Source: a virus. Taken from it: 49,444 bases of DNA. Of this stretch, positions 4,091 to 47,952 are shown one piece after another (within the stretch, counting starts at the first letter, position 1; each line of letters starts with the position of its first letter). The stretch is taken from IMG/VR virus record IMGVR_UViG_3300046003_003454, positions 1-49,444 of that record; one strand, written 5' to 3'. The notes below the pieces were generated by a model that was not told the DNA's origin, did no database searches, and saw only the letters and a program-made list of their open reading frames with translations. Both the position numbers and the translations under genes were made by a program.

Positions 4091-4666
4091 TCAAGCCCCA
4101 ACTAACACAGGTTGATCACTATGTGGAGTGGTTGCATCACTATGACTTGCGGAGGTGGTACCGTCACTGTGTGGTGTGGTTGCATTGCTGTGACTTGCGG
4201 TGGTAGTTCCGTCACTATGTGGGGTGGTTACATTCGTGTGACTTCCCACGATATCACTATGACTTAGTGGTGTGGTGTCATTCGTGTGCGTTGCAGTTAC
4301 ATTGGAGTGGGTGACCGGCGTGGTCGCATCACCATGGGCTCCAGGGTTAACCGTGTTCGCGTGGCTTGCTGGCACATCAGTGTGAGGAAATGGTGTATTA
4401 CCATGTGGCGTGGTGCCATCACTATGCGTGGGCGTGTCGGTGAAGTCACTATGACTTCCGCCGGCGCTGCTGTCACTGTGAGGTGCATAACTATCAGAAT
4501 GACTTGCCGGTGTGGTGCCATCACTATGTGCAGTGGTTGCATTTGTGTGACTTGAAACGGTATTACCGTGGCTTGCTGCTGTTGTTGCATTCGTGTGACT
4601 TGCCACAATATCAGAATGACTTGCCGGGGTGGTTACATCGGTGTGACTTGATGCCACATCCGTATG
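4091..4666 (-). repeat. DNA repeat tract encoding His-Xaa-Asp/Asn triplets, copy 1
   Basis: Imperfect short repeats built on the plus-strand words ATCACTATG(A/T) and GTGACTTGC(G/C)GG. They are in frame with the 288-aa gene and vary at codon level (CAT/CAC, AGT, GAT/AAT), as expected from repeat expansion and drift of coding sequence. Confidence 0.85.
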
Positions 4667-4957
4667 GCCTCGACGTTTATTTGTCGTGGTGGAAATCCAA
4701 TGCCAAAAGGTACTTTCCGACCACACTGATCCTGGTTTTGCACCACCCACAGCGCCCAAATCTGTACTCGCAATGTATCTGTCCGTTCCCGTAGCGTCAA
4801 TATAATGAAAGTCATTTCCATCAACCCACACAGAACCAAGTTTTGCACCGGCGGGAGTACCTGCCGATGTACCAATATAGTAGTATTCTACATTGGTATT
4901 ATCTATAAAATGAAATTCTGTTCCACTAACCCATATACTACCTGGTGCCTTTGCCAT
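4091..4957 (-). CDS. fibre-like protein with His-Xaa-Asp/Asn repeat tract
   Basis: 288 aa. Residues 5-90 hold three degenerate copies of a ~37-residue unit (PGSIWVSGTEFHFID, LGSVWVDGNDFHYID, PGSVWSESTFWHWI). From residue 98 to near the end runs a low-complexity tract with about 24 H-x-D or H-x-N triplets (HSD, HTN, HSN, HTD, HGN, HAN) spaced mostly 6-9 residues apart by Ser/Thr/Ala/Pro linkers such as ATTP. It has no cysteine. The start has GGAG 6 bases upstream. It lies 58 bases upstream of the radical SAM gene and downstream of the collagen-like genes, so it is probably a virion fibre or spike tip. It may be the substrate of the radical SAM enzyme or a metal-binding needle; both are inferences. 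Confidence 0.85.
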   Translation of the reverse strand: MAKAPGSIWVSGTEFHFIDNTNVEYYYIGTSAGTPAGAKLGSVWVDGNDFHYIDATGTDRYIASTDLGAVGGAKPGSVWSESTFWHWISTTTNKRRGHTDVASSHTDVTTPASHSDIVASHTNATTAASHGNTVSSHTNATTAHSDGTTPASHSDSYAPHSDSSAGGSHSDFTDTPTHSDGTTPHGNTPFPHTDVPASHANTVNPGAHGDATTPVTHSNVTATHTNDTTPLSHSDIVGSHTNVTTPHSDGTTTASHSNATTPHSDGTTSASHSDATTPHSDQPVLVGA

Positions 4958-4995
4958 GTTTTACTCCAATATAATCAATTCACTTGTATACATAT

Positions 4996-5844
4996 TTAGA
5001 TTGTAGGGGGACAGTTAAAAGAACCACCACAACCTGTTGGTAATGTTGCACATACCAACCCGTAGATCGATGTGTTTGTGGGGGTTAAACTGATACAGGT
5101 AACTGTACCTGGTGGGCATCCCGCATCCACCCCACGTAGACCCAGTGAACCAGATGGTCCTTGCACACCACTACTTCCACTCACACCAGCAGATCCAGAT
5201 GCAGGGGAATCTGCCGTTGGCCCCGTTGGTCCTACTGGTCCTGTTGCTCCTTGTGGTCCTGTTGGACCTGTTCCACCTGTGGTTTGTGGTCCAATTAGTC
5301 CTTGTGGTCCCGTTGGTCCTACAACATTCGTTAATCCTGTTGCTCCTGTAGGGCCATCGACACCAGCTACCAATCCCGTTGCTCCTTGTGGACCTGTTGG
5401 ACCTGTTGGCCCCGAAACTCCTTGCACACCAGTACTTCCCGATACCAACGAGGCAATCCCCACCGGTCCAGTAACTCCTGTTAGTCCAATAACTCCTGTT
5501 GCACCAGTTGGTCCCGATGCACCAGTTGGACCTGTAGATCCTGTTGGCCCTGTTATTCCCGTAATACCTGTTATACCGATAATTCCCGTAGGACCAGTTG
5601 AACCTACTCCAGTTGGACCTGTTGCACCAGTTGGTCCTGTGGGTCCTGTAGACCCCGATGTTGCTACACCAAGTATTCCTTGTGGACCTGTTGGTCCAAT
5701 ACTACCAATTGGTCCTGTTGCTCCCGACGCAAATGATGCGGTTAGTACATTAGCATTAATTGCAATACTTGCGGTAAGCGCATACTTTGCGGCACGTGCT
5801 ATACTTGCTGTCGTCGGTGTACCTAACGGAAAATATCGTGGCAT
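4996..5844 (-). CDS. collagen-like protein with Cys-containing C-terminus
   Basis: 282 aa. The N-terminus ([14 protein letters not shown]) matches those of the next two genes upstream and is followed by an Ala/Ser-rich helix. From about residue 41 to 230 it has Gly-Xaa-Yaa repeats, mostly GPT, GAT, GPQ and GIT, with short breaks. Such repeats form trimeric collagen helices and are common in phage fibres and in Bacillus exosporium BclA-type proteins. The last ~45 residues leave the repeat and contain five cysteines (GCPPG, VTC, VCA, GCGG, NCPP), unlike its siblings, suggesting a disulfide-linked or metal-binding tip. The ATG lies two bases after the previous stop, without a clear ribosome-binding site, so translation may be coupled. 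Confidence 0.85.
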
Positions 5845-17188: not shown

Positions 17189-17779
17189 TTAAAATCCGTT
17201 TGTTGTAGGATTGTAAAAAACTAAACCTGTTACATTTGTTGTTTTTGGTATAGTTGGAGTTTGGTAGTTGAAACTAAACACATCACCACCACCTATTTCA
17301 CCAAATTGCATTCTAATTGGATAATAAGTTCCTGCTGTTAATGAAACTGTGGCACTTCGTTCCGTATTACCATGTGCTCCACCATTATTTATATTAGCAT
17401 TAGCAGTAGTAAATCCCGATAATGCATTTGCTCCAATCCATAAATACGAACCATCATCACTTGATATATAAAGTGTATATGTTTCTGTTGTTGTTGGTTT
17501 AAAATATCCTAACCACTGTACACTAAAATTAGAACCATCATCCGAACTTGGTTCACTAATAGTAGTAGTTTGTACAGAAGTTGCCGGATTTGCTCCATAA
17601 GTAGTTGGTGTTGCCGTTGCAAAAAATGATGGGGTTTCATTATGATATCCTGCATAAGTTGTTTTATATAACCCCGCATTATAATTGGTTGGTTGCCATA
17701 CAATATTATTATTCAAATATGCTATTGTTGCAGTATTTCCATTAAATCGTATATTAGTTGCATCTCCAAATACTGGCAT
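17189..17779 (-). CDS. PA14-domain fibre protein
   Basis: 196 aa. Residues about 35-165 form a PA14/GLEYA-like beta-barrel: VQWLGYFKPTTTETYTLYI, then SSDDGSYLWIGANALSG and SLTAGTYYPIRMQFGEIGGG. The SSDDG aspartates match the calcium/sugar-binding pair of the family. PA14 domains bind glycans in adhesins and glycosidases. It starts three bases after the 168-aa fibre stop, so the pair may form one fibre (shaft plus receptor-binding head) from two genes. The N-terminus (MPVFGDATNIRFNGNTATIA) is a short beta segment. Confidence 0.8.
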   Translation of the reverse strand: MPVFGDATNIRFNGNTATIAYLNNNIVWQPTNYNAGLYKTTYAGYHNETPSFFATATPTTYGANPATSVQTTTISEPSSDDGSNFSVQWLGYFKPTTTETYTLYISSDDGSYLWIGANALSGFTTANANINNGGAHGNTERSATVSLTAGTYYPIRMQFGEIGGGDVFSFNYQTPTIPKTTNVTGLVFYNPTTNGF

Positions 17780-18331: not shown

Positions 18332-18778
18332 TTATACCTTTTCTGGGAATTGTACTACCCAGATATTCTCAAATGTTTGTGGAATATCTCGTAATGCTTG
18401 ACGATAGGTTGCCCATGCCGTTTTTTCTTCATCAGTTAATGTTGACCACCGGTCAGCCATTGTGATATAATCCGTTTCTTTTAACAGATGATTTCGTTCA
18501 GTACGAAGTGGTTCCCATTCTGCGGTTATCGTTGCATGCATTTCTTCTTCGGTTTTGTCTCGTTTCGTATAAGTTGCCGTGACAACACCCTCACCAATTT
18601 CTAAGATAGGGTCACTTAATACTTCTATGCGTTCCTTGAAGGTGTCAGGCATATTTTGGATTACCGGATACCATCCAATGTTCACCAATTCTTCTGGTGA
18701 TGTTAATTGTAACGGTGCCGGTAATAAGGTTGGACCATCTATGATGGTGTTATCTTGTACAATGTAATATAATGACAT
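18332..18778 (-). CDS. tail-fibre assembly chaperone
   Basis: 148 aa. The C-terminal part (LRTERNHLLKETDYITM, then WATYRQALRDIPQTF) matches the phage tail assembly chaperone family (PF16778-like), whose signature is 'lR..RN.LL..tD...YRqaLRDiP'. These proteins are not in the virion; they help fibres fold or trimerise. The N-terminal part (MSLYYIVQDNTIIDGP) is typical of the family. It follows the RCC1-like adhesin gene by 16 bases, which suggests it serves that protein or the whole fibre set. Confidence 0.85.
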   Translation of the reverse strand: MSLYYIVQDNTIIDGPTLLPAPLQLTSPEELVNIGWYPVIQNMPDTFKERIEVLSDPILEIGEGVVTATYTKRDKTEEEMHATITAEWEPLRTERNHLLKETDYITMADRWSTLTDEEKTAWATYRQALRDIPQTFENIWVVQFPEKV

Positions 18779-18794
18779 ATAATAGTATCCTTTA

Positions 18795-21533
18795 TTAATA
18801 ATAACAACCAGAGAAATCTATGGGAGCGTTGTAAGTACAGCTAACTGAAGTATAAACATCTTGATAGTATGTACCCCCACTAAAACCATAATCCGTACAA
18901 GGACCAGATGTTTGACTATATGTATATTGAAAACTACAACTAGTAAACACATCGACCTGCGTGCCCCCGTTACATGTAGCAGTTCCCACAGTAACCCCAC
19001 ACGAACCATTCGCTGTTATTGGGGTAAATTGTCCATTAAAACACGACCCAGATAGTAGTGCAGTGCTACCAGGACAATAGTTAGCGGTGATTGATGCGGT
19101 CGTTGGTGATCCACCTCCGTTTTTAAAATATCGAAGATCATGTTTGATGTTAATCGAATACGAAGGTGGTGCAATATATGCACGACTTGAACTTGGTCCT
19201 ATATAAGTCACAAATTGACTACCTGTTGCATTCGGATAACTACTGGATACTTGTATTTCCGCGTCACTCAAACTACTACTAAACTCTATATACGCATATC
19301 TAGGTAATTCGTTATTACTAGACCCAGTAAATATTTTAAATGATAAGTTGGTTGGTGCTCCTGACGCAGTAGGGAAACTAGATCCGGATATCTTTTTGCC
19401 CAGTACCAATAATGTAGATTCATTAGTTGAATTTACATTATATACCGTCCCCTTTGCAAAACCTTGAAAATTGTAGTTTGATGCAATACGGAACTTTGAA
19501 CCGCTAACTTTAATATCATTCATACCCCAAGTCATATTATTAACTTCGGACGACACAGATGGTGCAACTAATTGTGCATTTTGTGGAGTAGTAGTTAATC
19601 CTGTAATTGTACTTGCGGTTGGTAATGTTCGTCCGTAATTAGTTTCCGCAGCTGCCGATGACGGATTTCCCCACGCATTCAATGATCCAGTACTATCTAT
19701 TTCATAAATAATTCTCCCAAGCATGTAAATATTTGCACTGGTTGTAATAAATGGATCTAATACCGGTGAAGTTGAAGATGTTTGTAAATTGTTAGATGAT
19801 ACAAAATTTTGTTGTCTAGTATGAATAAAATCTTGTATATACCCGCCCCACCCATAGAACCGTGTACCGGCAACACCATATGTTGCCGCGTATCTGAGCG
19901 ATTGATCAGGTCCAACTTGAAACTCCGCATTACTTAAAAACTCCGAAGAATTCCCCCGTGACGGAATAACCATTACCCAATCTGTTAATCCATTATTTTC
20001 TTGTGATGGTACCGGTGACTGGCGTATCTGGGCGGTTGCATTACCAATCAATCCGTGTGAATAATTATTTCCCCATCCGAACAGTGTTCCATTATTTTTA
20101 ATTGCATGTGATGTTCTGTCCGCTGCTGCAAATATTCGTGGTGACCAATTATCTCCAATTACTTTATTGAAGAAATTTCTATTAGTATCACTACCACTTA
20201 TTCCACTCCCCAATTGACCGTTCGTGTTATTACCAGTAGCCCACAAGGTAGTGTCTAATTTTAATGCTAACGTCATCTCGTTACCACACGAAACAGCTAC
20301 CCAATCCGAATCAATTCCCACTCTGGCAGGAACGCTTGCAGTTGTTATTGTTGGACCCAACCCCAATGCGCCAGATACGCTTGCTCCCCAAGTCCATAAT
20401 GTACCATCATTGCGTATAGCTGCGGCATGTGTACGCCCAATTGAATGTTGAACCCACACCGAACTAGAAAATGATCCTGTGCCTACCCGTGTTGGTGTTC
20501 TAGATCCACCTCCAATTACATTTGTTGATCCTGTTCCAAATAAACTTCCTGTATTACCCCATGCGTATAAAAGTCCATCGAATGTTGTAGCGAGAACATT
20601 TGATCCATTCGTGGATGCTGATTCCCATGTTGTCAAAGTACTAACCAATTGAGGACCACCTGTTCCGTTTAATTGTCTACTGTGTCCATTATATCCTGAT
20701 GAGGTTGGTATTGCAAAGGGTGCATTCGTCGTTGTCGAACCCCCCAATGCATTTAGTGATAATGGATCAACAATTGTAAATGTAATTGGTGTTAATAAAG
20801 TACCATTAATAGACCCCGATACCCTAAATGAACCTGTAACTTTATTTGGTCCTGTTACCGACGCGGTAAATATTCCACTTGCTGAATATACGGTCGATGT
20901 ATATGCACCGTCTGATCCTGTAATGACTATTGTTTGTCCGGTATTTATATTTAATGCTTTGTTAAATCTATCTTTTAATTGCACCAACAATGGGGTCACT
21001 GCACCCGATACTACCTTTAATGCGGATGCGGTGACAAACGAGTAAAATGTATTTCCTGGTGCGACATTCGATCCAGTAGATAAATTTACCCATTCATTGG
21101 CATTTGATGTTCTGTCTGAATTTACAAAAAGTTGACCAGACGAACTATTTAACCACAAACTATTGTTTCGTGTTGGATTCGTTGTTACGGATGGGTCATT
21201 GGATGATGAATATTCAATAGCACTAAATATATTAGTTGCAAATGATGCCGTACCCACCAACAACGGTGCAATAATGTTATCCGTTGTAGTTAATTTACCT
21301 ATAATACTGGCGTCCCCCGCATGTGGAAATCCGCCAATTGTTGAACTGGATACTAAAAAGACCGATTCTGTAACCGTTGCGGAACCTCCATCATAGGTTA
21401 CATCCGTTAAACTTATAGAAGTAATATTTGGTGTAAATGCTTCCCACGCGGTACCATTCCATTGCCAACTATTGGTACCGTCAGAATAAATCTGATACGG
21501 GGTAGGACTTGATGGAAAATTAATTGCGGGCAT
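18795..21533 (-). CDS. tail fibre with RCC1-like propeller and Cys-rich tip
   Basis: 912 aa. The start (MPAINFPSSPTPYQIYSDGT, then NSWQWNGTAWEAF) is a common phage-fibre N-terminal module. Residues roughly 300-600 carry RCC1-type repeats: DGLLYAWGNTGSLFGTG, NDGTLWTWGASVSGALGLG, DTTLWATGNNTNGQLGSG, NNGTLFGWGNNYSHGLIG, each with the W-G-x-N/G...G-x-L-G pattern, so a seven-bladed propeller is likely. After RYFKNGGGSPTTASITANYC the last ~90 residues are Cys-rich (CPGS, SGSCF, GSCGV, ATCNG, TSCSF, GPCTD, VSCTY, GCYY), probably a disulfide-bonded tip. The likely role is receptor binding. Confidence 0.85.
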   Translation of the reverse strand: MPAINFPSSPTPYQIYSDGTNSWQWNGTAWEAFTPNITSISLTDVTYDGGSATVTESVFLVSSSTIGGFPHAGDASIIGKLTTTDNIIAPLLVGTASFATNIFSAIEYSSSNDPSVTTNPTRNNSLWLNSSSGQLFVNSDRTSNANEWVNLSTGSNVAPGNTFYSFVTASALKVVSGAVTPLLVQLKDRFNKALNINTGQTIVITGSDGAYTSTVYSASGIFTASVTGPNKVTGSFRVSGSINGTLLTPITFTIVDPLSLNALGGSTTTNAPFAIPTSSGYNGHSRQLNGTGGPQLVSTLTTWESASTNGSNVLATTFDGLLYAWGNTGSLFGTGSTNVIGGGSRTPTRVGTGSFSSSVWVQHSIGRTHAAAIRNDGTLWTWGASVSGALGLGPTITTASVPARVGIDSDWVAVSCGNEMTLALKLDTTLWATGNNTNGQLGSGISGSDTNRNFFNKVIGDNWSPRIFAAADRTSHAIKNNGTLFGWGNNYSHGLIGNATAQIRQSPVPSQENNGLTDWVMVIPSRGNSSEFLSNAEFQVGPDQSLRYAATYGVAGTRFYGWGGYIQDFIHTRQQNFVSSNNLQTSSTSPVLDPFITTSANIYMLGRIIYEIDSTGSLNAWGNPSSAAAETNYGRTLPTASTITGLTTTPQNAQLVAPSVSSEVNNMTWGMNDIKVSGSKFRIASNYNFQGFAKGTVYNVNSTNESTLLVLGKKISGSSFPTASGAPTNLSFKIFTGSSNNELPRYAYIEFSSSLSDAEIQVSSSYPNATGSQFVTYIGPSSSRAYIAPPSYSINIKHDLRYFKNGGGSPTTASITANYCPGSTALLSGSCFNGQFTPITANGSCGVTVGTATCNGGTQVDVFTSCSFQYTYSQTSGPCTDYGFSGGTYYQDVYTSVSCTYNAPIDFSGCYY

Positions 21534-21538
21534 ATGAC

Positions 21539-22447
21539 TTAATATTCAAAGATAATTACACCAGCCGAACCAGAACCACCGGCTCGTAATGTAGTACCAG
21601 AACCATTGCGTCCACCACTTCCACCTGCACCATATCCAACACCAGTTATTCCATTGGCTCCTGCCGCAGTTGCTGGTGTTTTTCCACCGTGTCCATATCC
21701 TAGTGCGCTATTACCACCTTCACCAATATAATTGGTAGTAGCCGCCATTAGTCCACCCGCAGAGCCAGATGCACCTGGAATATTTAAACTACCACCACCA
21801 GACTGTCCACCTGCTCCACCGAAGATAGATGTACCTGCGGTTGCCACCGAGAATCCACCACTGGCATGATAAGTAATTGCATTATATACTACCGATGAGA
21901 TACCTCCGGCGGTACCTGCCGCTGATGCTGTTGCTGCGGTACCTGCGACACCAACCGTATAAGTTGCGGTTGTTTGTCCTGGAACGAAAGTTAGATACGC
22001 CACTGACAATCCACCACCCCCACCACCGGCACCGACATGTCCAGCAGTTGCGGTTCCTGTACTTCCTCCTCCTCCACCGCCACCAATGATAGTTACTTTG
22101 AACTTAGCATTAGCAACTTGTAACGCAGCAGGTAATGTAAATGTATCCGCTGATCCTGATGTTTTTACATCTATATTTTGAAATCCCGCACCAACCGTAG
22201 ATGTAATAGTAGTAGCATTAACGGTTGTGATATTTCCCGTTGTGATAGATGCCGTTGGAATCGTGGTGACATTCCCCACCGTCTTGGCGTACACAGAATA
22301 TGGTAACGATGTCCATGTAGCAGACCCACTACCAATTTTCACAAATCCCGTATCGGTTTCAAACCCAACTTCACCGGGTGCTAGAGTAGGATTGGTTGAT
22401 GTCCAGTTGGTTGCAGTATCTCTGCGATATTGAATTCTTGTTGCCAT
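21539..22447 (-). CDS. glycine-rich tail fibre with Mtd-like N-terminal domain
   Basis: 302 aa from the ATG at 22447, which overlaps the previous stop as TAATG; a reading frame from 22462 is also open but lies inside the upstream gene. Residues 1-45 (ATRIQYRRDTATNWTSTNP, LAPGEVGFETDTGFVKIG) match the N-terminal beta-prism module of the major tropism determinant of Bordetella phage, common in phage fibres. The C-terminal half is glycine-rich (IIGGGGGGGSTG, GAGGGGGG, GGAGGQSGGG) and ends AGVIIFEY, the usual ending of glycine-rich receptor-binding tips. No reverse transcriptase or variable-repeat pair is visible, so it is not evidently a diversity-generating element. Confidence 0.82.
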   Translation of the reverse strand: MATRIQYRRDTATNWTSTNPTLAPGEVGFETDTGFVKIGSGSATWTSLPYSVYAKTVGNVTTIPTASITTGNITTVNATTITSTVGAGFQNIDVKTSGSADTFTLPAALQVANAKFKVTIIGGGGGGGSTGTATAGHVGAGGGGGGLSVAYLTFVPGQTTATYTVGVAGTAATASAAGTAGGISSVVYNAITYHASGGFSVATAGTSIFGGAGGQSGGGSLNIPGASGSAGGLMAATTNYIGEGGNSALGYGHGGKTPATAAGANGITGVGYGAGGSGGRNGSGTTLRAGGSGSAGVIIFEY

Positions 22448-22953
22448 TATGCTGTTCCACAATTAATTGTTTGTGCCCATGATGTTGTGGATGCTATTCC
22501 ACCATCTAAATCTATATTTGTTCCACTACGAGCAGAAATATCTTCTACCCACTGATCTGTATCACCATCGTTATAATATATAAACATTTTTCCAAGTGTG
22601 GAATTCCACCACATATTTCCTGCACTTGGACCTACAGGAGCAGTATCACTGACCGTTACTGAACTTCCACCACCACCACCAGCAGAAGTTAGTGCAAATG
22701 ATGCGGTAGTTGCAAATGATGCCGAGGTACCCGATAATGCATTAAATTGTGCAGAACTACTAACAACATCACCGAGTTTATTCGTGATGGAGTTATAATC
22801 TACTTGAACAGAAGATGATACGGTTCCTGTGGGAAGTGCAGTTGCTACTTGGGTAGAACTCGATACAATACCCGTGGGTACACTTATTAACGAAGTGTAA
22901 CTTAGTGAACCCGTGAGTGATGATCCTGATATATTGCCAGCAAATATTGCCAT
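22447..22953 (-). CDS. short tail fibre, cassette type
   Basis: 168 aa. It starts MAIFAGNISGSSLTGSLSYT, then carries VSSSTQVATALPTG and the DYNSITNKLGDVVSSSAQ / FNALSGTSASFATTAS cassette, nearly the same as in the 213-, 510- and 483-aa fibres. The C-terminal ~65 residues (APVGPSAGNMWWNSTLGKMF, YYNDGDTDQWVED) are the short 'W-N-S..G..fiYyNdG...W' beta motif frequent in phage tail proteins. It is translationally coupled to the glycine-rich fibre that follows. Confidence 0.78.
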   Translation of the reverse strand: MAIFAGNISGSSLTGSLSYTSLISVPTGIVSSSTQVATALPTGTVSSSVQVDYNSITNKLGDVVSSSAQFNALSGTSASFATTASFALTSAGGGGGSSVTVSDTAPVGPSAGNMWWNSTLGKMFIYYNDGDTDQWVEDISARSGTNIDLDGGIASTTSWAQTINCGTA

Positions 22954-23046: not shown

Positions 23047-23337
23047 TTAATTAAATCGCAACGGAACACCTGGTGTTTGTGTGATCAATGCGGCTAATTG
23101 TTGATCTTGCAAATCAGTTGCCCACCCAATTAATTCTGGGTTCACATTTAATGTCTGAACTACCGCATCAAAGACATCATTTTTTGTCCAATTTTCTGGC
23201 AATCCCGGCTCATCAAGTGTTACCATCTTTGAAATGAACAATATACCAAGATCATTTTGTGCCGGTGATACACACTGTACCTCTATTTTTTTTGTTACGG
23301 CGTTGAATATTACAACCCGAATAAAAATTGTTTTCAT
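23047..23337 (-). CDS. small hypothetical protein, 96 aa
   Basis: No family recognised. It has a beta-strand start (KTIFIRVVIFNAVTKKIEV) followed by a helical C-terminal half with Trp residues (GLPENWTKNDVFDAVVQTL, ELIGWATDL). An AGGAG-like ribosome-binding site is present in the 17-base gap after the fibronectin III gene. Its size and position after an adhesin suggest a dedicated chaperone or cap, without further evidence. Confidence 0.65.
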   Translation of the reverse strand: MKTIFIRVVIFNAVTKKIEVQCVSPAQNDLGILFISKMVTLDEPGLPENWTKNDVFDAVVQTLNVNPELIGWATDLQDQQLAALITQTPGVPLRFN

Positions 23338-23354
23338 AACTACATTCTCCTATA

Positions 23355-24233
23355 TTAAAAATAATATTGTGTTTGTGTTGATATAGTGAAATCTTGGTAG
23401 CCCCTGTAGGCAAAGAAATAATTTGACCCGCCCAAATATATATCAGGCTGGCCGCCGCGGCCCAGTCCTTCAAATCTTCCAGTCATTGTAACCGTGATGA
23501 GGCCCCAGCCGATGTTTGTGTAAGGTCGGACTTGGAGGTTTGCCGTCGTCGTACATCCCGCCGAGTAGTAGAGCTCTTGATAATCATAAGTACCCGCAGA
23601 CCAGAACGTTCCGTCAGAGTGACGATATACCCAGAGCTCGCCGTACATGGCATATCCGGCGCCGGTAGAGCAAAATCCACCATAAACAAATGCTTGATTC
23701 CCGTAGCCGGTTCCCGAGAGCGTGCCTATACTAACAGAACCTAAACTACCAACATCGTAACCTAAGTATGCACAACACTGCGCCGAGTTTGATTCTGTGC
23801 TTTGATATGTTCCACAATTACCGTCGTTACGCGTAACATACGCAGTACAATCACTACAATAATATGATACCTGTGTTCCCGCCGATGGACATGATAGAGT
23901 TGTAATTGATGCGGTATTTGATGCCGATCCTTCTATGGTATTTTTAAAATACCGAACGTTAAAACTATATGATGTTACTTGTGATAATCCTGTATTGGTG
24001 TATGATGTTGATCCTGCCGATAACGTAGTTACTAATGATGCCCCGCGATATACTCTAATTTGTGATATATTATCTGTGTTTGTCCAAGATAGTTGCACAG
24101 ATGTACCAGCAATTGATGGCGCGGAAAGTGATGTTGGTGCACTTGTTGGACCCAGTAAAGCGGTTATTCTTCGGAACGCACGCCCAAATCCTCTGGTCGA
24201 TCCCCCACCCAGTGTTGTTAAAAATGGTGACAT
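23355..24233 (-). CDS. fibronectin type III adhesin with Cys-rich C-terminus
   Basis: 292 aa. Residues about 36-115 are a fibronectin III domain: APTSLSAPSIAGTSVQLSW, ISQIRVYRGASLVTTL, TSYTNTGLSQVTSYSFNVRY. RYFKN...TASIT then joins to a Cys-containing region (LSCPSAG, YYCSDC, GNCGTY, QCCAYLG), like the joint in the 912-aa fibre. The final ~100 residues (SVSIGTLSGTGYGNQAFVYG and on) are a beta domain encoded by DNA that is visibly more GC-rich (about 50-55% in 23461-23720) than its surroundings, suggesting a recently acquired tip. The ATG follows the previous stop by three bases. Confidence 0.8.
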   Translation of the reverse strand: MSPFLTTLGGGSTRGFGRAFRRITALLGPTSAPTSLSAPSIAGTSVQLSWTNTDNISQIRVYRGASLVTTLSAGSTSYTNTGLSQVTSYSFNVRYFKNTIEGSASNTASITTLSCPSAGTQVSYYCSDCTAYVTRNDGNCGTYQSTESNSAQCCAYLGYDVGSLGSVSIGTLSGTGYGNQAFVYGGFCSTGAGYAMYGELWVYRHSDGTFWSAGTYDYQELYYSAGCTTTANLQVRPYTNIGWGLITVTMTGRFEGLGRGGQPDIYLGGSNYFFAYRGYQDFTISTQTQYYF

Positions 24234-46074: not shown

Positions 46075-47952
46075 TTAGTTTTCTAGCCCCAAAATGTTAT
46101 TTTCATCTAAAAAAGAACCTGTTGGCGTTGTATTTTCCAACAAAACCGAATTTTTTGTTTTATTTAACGATCCTTTGTCCAACCACTGTTGCATTTCCAA
46201 TGTCAATGGTGATTTTCGTTTATCGTTTCGTCGTTTACCTACAGTCAACGAATCCATATTTTCTTTATGTCCCAAAGGATCACGCCCCCGTGGATGACTA
46301 TCTTGCCCATAGGACACACCCTTCTTGGGTCTGCCCATGTTAGCCTCCTCCAAATCAACATCTTCCAATTCACTTTCTTCGTCGGATTGGTCTAATGACG
46401 CTAGGATACTGTCTACATCGTCAACTTGTTGCTGTTCTATATCTTCTGGTTCGGGTTGCTCTTCTTCCCCACCGGTAGCCACTTGTTGTGGTTCTTGTGG
46501 TTGTTCCAACTTAGTTAATTCCATAACTCGCTTTACATCCTCTACAACTTTTGATCGTTGCGTACTAACATCATCTTCTGACATTTCAAAAATATGATGA
46601 TATACCCAATCTTGTGAAATTAATTTAGTTCCAATAAGATCATTTGCCACTGCAACCTTTTCTTTCCACAAGTTCAATTTTTCTTGTTCATACACAATGG
46701 ATGGTGAAGTTAAACTTAATTCAAAATCAATCAATTCTTCGTCACGGAATCCTTGAATGTATAAATGAATTATAGCAATCTTTGTTAACTCCGACACCAT
46801 AATACGCTGAATTCGTTCGATGGTACGAGCAAACCGTACATCTTGTGCTGCTAATGTCGCCTTACCACTTATACCCTCTTCGTATCCCATAAACGCCTTC
46901 GGTACTTTAAAGGCAGCCAATAGTTTGTTACGGAGATATTCAATGTCTTCAATCGCATTAAATTGCAACCCAGGAAGATTTTGAATATCGGTACCAGAAT
47001 CTTTCCCTCGAACAGGAAGATAAAAATCTTCCGTAATGTTCATCATATTATATCGAAGATTGTAATCACCGGTCGTTGGATCTACCAATGGAGTTTTTTT
47101 CATACGATCCATGATACGATTCATGAAGGTATCAATTTCTGCCGGCGGGATATTACCGATATCGACCAAAATCTTACGCTTGTCTGGTGCTCGCATGATA
47201 CGATGGATTAACATTGCATCTTCCATGAGTTGCAATTGCTTCCATACACGGCGACCACCTTCGATCATGGCTTTACCATACGGAAGGAAATTCGTGTCCG
47301 CTAATAAACGGAAATGTGCTACTTCAAAACTTTCAAAATCTTTCTTACCTAATAGCAAGAAATCATTTTCAATTTTAAATCGCACACTGAATGGTTGATC
47401 GGGTTGTTCACCCTCAATACGGATGGTTTCGTATACCGATAATGGTACTGCATTAACCACTCCGTATTCTTGATCCAAGTCCAAATATAAAAAGAAATCT
47501 CCGTACTTTGCCATGTTACGAATCCATGGCCAAAGATTAAATTCAATATTTAAAATGTCATAAAATAAATTATGGAGAATATCTTGAACTTGTTGATTTT
47601 TTGATTTAATACTTAGAATTTGTCCAAACTCATCTTTAATAGTACTTTCATCAGCATAAATGTCTAATACCGACGAGATAATAGGATCATTATCCATCAT
47701 ATCATAATCACGGAATAACTGTAATCGTGATCCCTGAAATGCGGCCGCTGCTTCATATCTACCGTGCGAAGAACCATATCCTCCGGTACCCGATGAGTAC
47801 ACGCGATGATATCTATCAACTCCACGCCGATTAACAAAGCTTTGTATGTTGTCAGTATCAGCTATTTTTAATTTTTTTCCTCCAACATTACGAACAATGG
47901 TACTGGTGGAAAAAAGTTTTTTAAGCCTAGTAAATAAAGATGTGTCGGACAT
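46075..47952 (-). CDS. gp20: portal vertex protein (gp20-like)
   Basis: 625 aa. Diagnostic stretches are FRDYDMMDNDPIISSVLDIY, ADESTIKDEFGQILSI, NLWPWIRNMAKYGDFFLYLD, MLIHRIMRAPDKRKILVDIG, DYNLRYNMMNITEDFYLPVR and LAAFKVPKAFMGYEEGISGK in the T4 gp20 order. The C-terminal ~150 residues are longer than in T4 and acidic/Gln-rich (EPEDIEQQQVDDVDSILASL), then basic. It forms the dodecameric ring through which DNA enters and where the neck attaches. The preceding gene ends 10 bases before its start. Confidence 0.96.
   Translation of the reverse strand: MSDTSLFTRLKKLFSTSTIVRNVGGKKLKIADTDNIQSFVNRRGVDRYHRVYSSGTGGYGSSHGRYEAAAAFQGSRLQLFRDYDMMDNDPIISSVLDIYADESTIKDEFGQILSIKSKNQQVQDILHNLFYDILNIEFNLWPWIRNMAKYGDFFLYLDLDQEYGVVNAVPLSVYETIRIEGEQPDQPFSVRFKIENDFLLLGKKDFESFEVAHFRLLADTNFLPYGKAMIEGGRRVWKQLQLMEDAMLIHRIMRAPDKRKILVDIGNIPPAEIDTFMNRIMDRMKKTPLVDPTTGDYNLRYNMMNITEDFYLPVRGKDSGTDIQNLPGLQFNAIEDIEYLRNKLLAAFKVPKAFMGYEEGISGKATLAAQDVRFARTIERIQRIMVSELTKIAIIHLYIQGFRDEELIDFELSLTSPSIVYEQEKLNLWKEKVAVANDLIGTKLISQDWVYHHIFEMSEDDVSTQRSKVVEDVKRVMELTKLEQPQEPQQVATGGEEEQPEPEDIEQQQVDDVDSILASLDQSDEESELEDVDLEEANMGRPKKGVSYGQDSHPRGRDPLGHKENMDSLTVGKRRNDKRKSPLTLEMQQWLDKGSLNKTKNSVLLENTTPTGSFLDENNILGLEN

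Follow-up and report, generated by a model that had tools for sequence, protein, structure and literature searches.

Exchange of tail-fibre C-termini is well known in phages, and in other systems it is established that exchange of the tip sets specificity. T4-type phages often shuffle the C-terminal specificity regions of gp37 and gp38, as noted in a passage of PMC3797505 that cites Tetart 1998 and Trojet 2011. The receptor-binding proteins of Klebsiella phages, in the account given in part of PMC8262889, combine an N-terminal anchor on the virion with an exchanged C-terminal module that sets specificity, as chimeras demonstrate. Ig-like domains are found in many phage proteins contacting the environment (a passage of PMC3797505, citing Fraser 2007). 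We analysed a 49,444-base virus record from a collection of uncultivated viruses (IMG/VR), referred to throughout as the window and probably a fragment, which carries a 292-aa fibre-type gene whose parts and surroundings are collected in Table 1.

Table 1 Features of the 292-aa fibre-type gene and its surroundings in the window
Feature	Position	Strand	Basis
Preceding fibre-like gene, 510 aa	24237..25769	-	phrog_5906, residues 362-509
Block common to the window and locus L001	23896..24781	-	blastn, 81.4 % DNA identity over 886 bases
292-aa fibre/adhesin-type gene (N-terminal putative adapter peptide, FN3, Cys segment, orphan tip)	23355..24233	-	ORF, Pfam, PHROG
N-terminal peptide, residues 1-27, MSPFLTTLGGGSxRGFGR..RRI	24153..24233	-	85-88 % identical in two L001 genes
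Fibronectin type III (FN3) domain, residues 28-110	23904..24152	-	Pfam; 69 % identical in L001
Cys-containing segment, residues 111-155	23769..23903	-	native GC3, 0.267
C-terminal tip, residues 156-292, foreign codon composition	23358..23768	-	GC3; no homologue found
GC3 island, best estimate, codons 170-282 (start uncertain, codons 144-188)	23388..23726	-	change-point fit, cumulative residual

Proteins of the T4 type are encoded in the window, with phrog_138, 213, 207 and 23 matching the major head, portal, prohead protease and tail sheath proteins, and a tail tube gene lies alongside these structural genes. Judged by its head, portal, protease and sheath proteins the phage is a T4-like, contractile-tailed phage (myovirus). 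Its closest head proteins, among the best 12 of 2499 matching phage records, are those of Flavobacterium phage immuto (50.8 %) and Microcystis phage Mel-JY01 (50.6 %). Several fibre-like genes run at about 18.8-30.8 kb, the 292-aa gene among them; phrog_5906, matched by the preceding gene, is a family of unknown function. The product of the third gene downstream (21539-22462, minus strand) begins with a domain of the Mtd type and ends in one rich in glycine. A fibre protein of 912 aa, with RCC1 repeats and a C-terminus rich in Cys, is encoded at 18795-21533 (minus strand), after which comes a Phage_tail_APC chaperone gene of 148 aa (18332-18778, minus strand). A small protein with a GLEYA/PA14 domain is encoded at 17189-17779 (minus strand), and the G+C content of its third codon positions (GC3) is unusually low (0.122, z -5.0), a deviation opposite to that described below for the fibre tip.

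Pfam identified a single FN3 domain within the 292-aa protein (PF00041, residues 31-108, 28.1 bits against a curated cut-off of 25). The FN3 part accounts for all four PHROG families that match the protein; three are annotated as 'major tail protein' and the fourth is of unknown function, the tail families phrog_1696, 7440 and 4971 matching inside residues 22-135. NCBIfam returned nothing for the whole protein or for the tip. Single-sequence structure predictions reached a pLDDT of 35.5 for the whole protein and 38.9 for the tip, and the all-beta look of the tip model was set aside because predictions made without an alignment were too poor. The locus resembles gp37 and gp38 of T4 in that a C-terminal specificity part appears to have been exchanged, but differs in that its constant part consists of a short peptide and an FN3 domain and its tip is an orphan; the protein has no PHROG match to the gp37 or gp38 family. 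The logic is likewise that of the Klebsiella phage proteins, although no depolymerase or beta-helix family was detected in the 292-aa protein by Pfam, PHROG or NCBIfam. Compared with phage structural proteins carrying Ig-like or FN3 domains, the likeness lies in the FN3 domain inside the fibre and the tail families that match it, whereas here the FN3 domain sits in the constant half, at native composition (GC3 0.193), and would not be the imported part.

The initial annotation had singled out 23461-23580 as GC-rich at 52-55 %, and the measured values bear this out (51.7 % for 23461-23520, 55.0 % for 23521-23580 and 53.5 % for 23440-23740, against 39.6 % for the window). The raw G+C of the stretch is notable but not exceptional: the 300 bases from 23440 stand at 53.3 %, a value equalled or exceeded by 2.3 % of all 300-base windows, and the maximum of 54.7 % around the tip (run 23340-23903) is equalled by a run at 21.5-22.2 kb and exceeded at 4.0-8.3 kb, where runs reach up to 59.3 %. 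Gly-rich repeats encoded in these islands account for a G+C equal to or above that of the tip, the G+C of second codon positions (GC2) being 0.60-0.81 in the five genes concerned. Their GC3 is 0.21-0.26 in four cases and 0.37 in the fifth (4091-4957), so that raw G+C is insufficient as evidence of import, since Gly-rich fibre genes match or exceed the tip and four of the five do so without a rise in GC3. The fifth gene (minus strand) encodes a 288-aa protein ending in short His/Asp/Ser/Thr repeats (SHSDxTTPHSDGTT type), for which a Pfam search returned no match, and holds the second-strongest 137-codon GC3 rise in the window.

Third positions, in contrast to raw G+C, set the tip apart. Codons 1-155 have a GC3 of 0.245 against 0.258 expected from the synonymous usage of the other genes, while codons 156-292 have 0.474 against an amino-acid-corrected expectation of 0.261 (z 6.1), a value reached in none of 20000 draws. 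In sliding windows of 45, 90 and 137 codons the tip has the highest GC3 of all sufficiently long ORFs among the 47 taken as genes, a result independent of block layout and of the border at codon 156. The tip also ranks first or second of 234 non-overlapping blocks of 60 codons, first of 152 blocks of 90 and first of 91 blocks of 137, although the tip is favoured here in two ways, by counting the blocks of this gene from its 3′ end and by setting the border post hoc. The z values of the blocks show overdispersion (sd 1.31-1.57, the latter at 137 codons), so that the formal z corresponds to about 4 empirical standard deviations. The codon-use check proposed in the initial annotation thus gave a significant deviation at third positions, and by this measure the tip has the synonymous composition of laterally acquired DNA. 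Of 17 amino acids in the tip, 13 show a raised GC3, for example Gly (0.52 vs 0.15, n 25), Ala (0.71 vs 0.24, n 7) and Leu (0.78 vs 0.30, n 9); four lie below background, namely Ser, Val, Pro and Asp (by 0.01), and Gln is equal to it, several of these values coming from 1-5 codons each. Third-position A drops from 0.46 to 0.22 and C climbs from 0.10 to 0.31.

A change-point fit places the shift best at codon 170, any start from codon 144 to 188 lying within 2 log-likelihood units of it, and along the 292 codons the cumulative GC3 residual is lowest as early as codon 130 and highest at codon 282. As the downstream gene (23047-23337) is ordinary in GC3 (z 0.8), the shift ends near the 3′ end of the gene. 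The earlier description of a shift inside the gene and away from its ends therefore holds for the start, which is internal, and needs a small correction for the end.

These positions also bear on whether the assembler spliced in part of a fibre gene from another phage. The window, 49 kb long, comes from an uncultivated-virus collection, and repeats common to fibre genes can mislead assemblers; however, the reading frame is open across the inner border, an ordinary gene begins 17 bases after the stop codon and both flanks are at the phage's own composition, which makes an assembly chimaera very unlikely.

The shift could also have arisen in a tip native to the phage, if selection or mutation had pushed up GC3 locally, whether through a codon choice that serves folding or expression, through RNA structure or through an overlapping frame. 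GC3 is also raised in 4091-4957, whose 137-codon block (z 4.2) reads as the His/Asp/Ser repeat and shows a local rise without evident import, which counts against import in the tip as well, and in the portal gene (46075-47952, z 3.0); the major head gene is slightly richer in third-position C (0.20 vs 0.12). The GC3 of the tip nevertheless exceeds that of every other raised stretch and its share of C is well above that of the head gene, and selection for expression would not leave codons 1-155 untouched. RNA structure was rejected as the cause of the island, since folding is ordinary (z -0.31). One antisense frame over the tip is open for 105 codons; synonymous shuffles attain this length in 2.55 % of cases, or in 3.35 % when the longest open stretch of any frame is counted, but with five frames tested this evidence is marginal and an overlapping gene was likewise set aside. 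Six promoter-like sites were found against 5.2 expected, and no terminators against 1.1 expected. On balance we consider a native tip unlikely.

One other IMG/VR record, 2606217193, was found to encode a relative of the 292-aa protein, at a locus we call L001. A scan with the N-terminal peptide gave 78 stretches that fit a pattern, two of which were confirmed, both at this one locus, while a search of phages with the peptide returned no match. The first of the two genes (326 aa, L001 5001-5981) matches the window protein over residues 1-114 at 73 %, beyond which another C-terminus, rich in Cys, follows; the second (467 aa, L001 7282-8685) has only its first 25 residues in common and continues into RCC1 repeats, a second natural exchange behind the same peptide. 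The pattern of a modular fibre, a common N-terminus with differing C-termini behind it, is thus present in two genes of a single other record. The window's own RCC1 protein has another N-terminus than that of L001, and the alignment is largely confined to the repeats (34.5 % over 171 residues), apart from another C-terminal piece at no better than E 0.23. In both records the RCC1 gene is followed by a small gene, that of L001 (149 aa) being 31 % identical to the Phage_tail_APC chaperone.

The block common to both records comprises the end of the preceding gene, the start codon, the N-terminal peptide and the FN3 domain, and homology ends at about codon 112. Over codons 1-112, 52 of 110 aligned codons differ, 24 of them silently. 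The preceding gene is 65 % identical over residues 243-510 to L004, a locus of the same record as L001, and in both the window and L001 its 3′ end adjoins the N-terminal peptide. A 110-base piece around the start codon (86 %) recurs before and in the RCC1 gene (L001 7242-7351) and includes about 40 bases upstream of the start codon, so that the repeat begins in what is, in the other copy, the end of the preceding gene. At L001 about 4118-4997 the preceding fibre gene appears without its 5′ part, homology beginning abruptly at residue 243, after a stop codon. The L001 genes lie near a UvsX-like recombinase and a single-strand-binding protein, a gene neighbourhood other than that of the window, and the L001 fibre block looks as if it had been inserted not far behind the uvsX-like gene. 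Measured against the 10 genes of its locus, the L001 C-terminus is at its own record's GC3 (z -0.8), as is its N-terminal and FN3 part (z 0.1), which makes the tip of the window the odd one out; import into the window's lineage would be the simplest direction on this one comparison.

The Cys segment is less clear in its affinities. It has a weak 21-residue similarity to L001, residues 88-141 are weakly similar to the window's 912-aa RCC1 protein (E 0.12), and searched alone against phages the segment gave a single chance-level match (E 9). The composition break lies about 30-75 codons beyond the homology break, and this difference suggests that the history may have had more than one step: either the Cys segment arrived in an earlier exchange or its shortness masks a composition of its own.

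Searches of the tip alone, as the initial annotation had recommended, recovered no relative with the same tip in the collections searched. Residues 112-292 and 198-277 had no relative in IMG/VR and residues 156-292 none in the GTDB species genomes by pattern scans, which detect close relatives only, and a tblastn search of 50,697 phage records with residues 112-292 likewise came back empty. In the records of 50 relatives (from 80 head-gene loci) nothing matched the whole protein at E 0.01, a weak negative, as many of these records are short and none was a positive control. Against phages the whole protein hit 19 records at E 0.09 to 10, all within residues 41-141; residues 1-110 gave three weak FN3 matches in bacterial MAGs when searched against genomes, and plasmids gave one weak match in the FN3 region. 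The C-terminus of the first L001 gene (residues 115-326) was found nowhere except in its own record. Two candidates were judged chance matches, namely CTP synthase, the best PDB sequence match of the tip (E 0.25), and L103, an unrelated phage-like stretch that the upstream junction pattern matched in addition to the L001 record. The same module in another lineage, which would mark a donor, was found in none of IMG/VR, the phages, the GTDB species genomes and the 50 relatives' records. With neither a donor nor a second copy of the tip found, we infer the transfer from composition and one homologous record.

Variation of the tip by a diversity-generating retroelement was also considered, prompted by the Mtd-type domain in the third gene downstream, whose name comes from the classical target of such an element. 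Mtd_N is an anchor domain, however, and by itself no sign of a retroelement; the window, probably a fragment, holds no near-copy of residues 111-292 that could serve as template, and a PHROG scan that covered 29 of its 47 proteins found no reverse transcriptase family. We regard this explanation as very improbable.

The 292-aa protein is probably a modular adhesin of the short tail-fibre type whose C-terminal module was replaced by intragenic recombination, and this explanation fits the setting, where several fibre genes of a T4-like myovirus are clustered. Residues 1-110, comprising the peptide and the FN3 domain, would be the constant, long-resident part. An exchangeable C-terminal module, starting from about residue 113 and clearly from about 156-170, would have displaced an earlier one through recombination inside the gene, coming from a donor whose third positions were far richer in G+C (0.47-0.58 vs 0.26) and not yet having drifted to the phage's own codon usage. 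Residues 1-27 are a probable adapter that most likely holds the protein on the virion, with the FN3 domain and Cys segment most likely acting as a spacer or hinge and the tip most likely touching the host surface, in which case exchange of the tip would alter the surface gripped. The initial annotation had proposed a recently acquired receptor-binding tip: a foreign-composition C-terminal module is supported by GC3 and, independently, by the L001 homologue, while the direction and recency of the exchange, attachment to the virion and contact with a receptor are what we infer from this arrangement.

More tentatively, the 110-residue adapter part and the adjoining 3′ end of the preceding gene could jointly be a mobile plug that takes quite different tips, with nested exchange points after codons of about 25, 112 and 150, the window tip then being an undescribed receptor-binding domain; this wider scheme is possible, though we hold it at less than even. 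Such a plug would accept an orphan domain, a Cys-rich domain and RCC1 repeats within a group of uncultivated T4-like phages.

The locus would represent a clean replacement of a fibre tip within a gene, caught before codon usage had evened out, in a T4-like phage distant from its nearest cultured relatives among the matches listed (head protein about 51 % identical). Third-position composition, rather than raw G+C, can reveal such tips even where no homologue is available, and the adapter peptide may be used for collecting further exchangeable tips.
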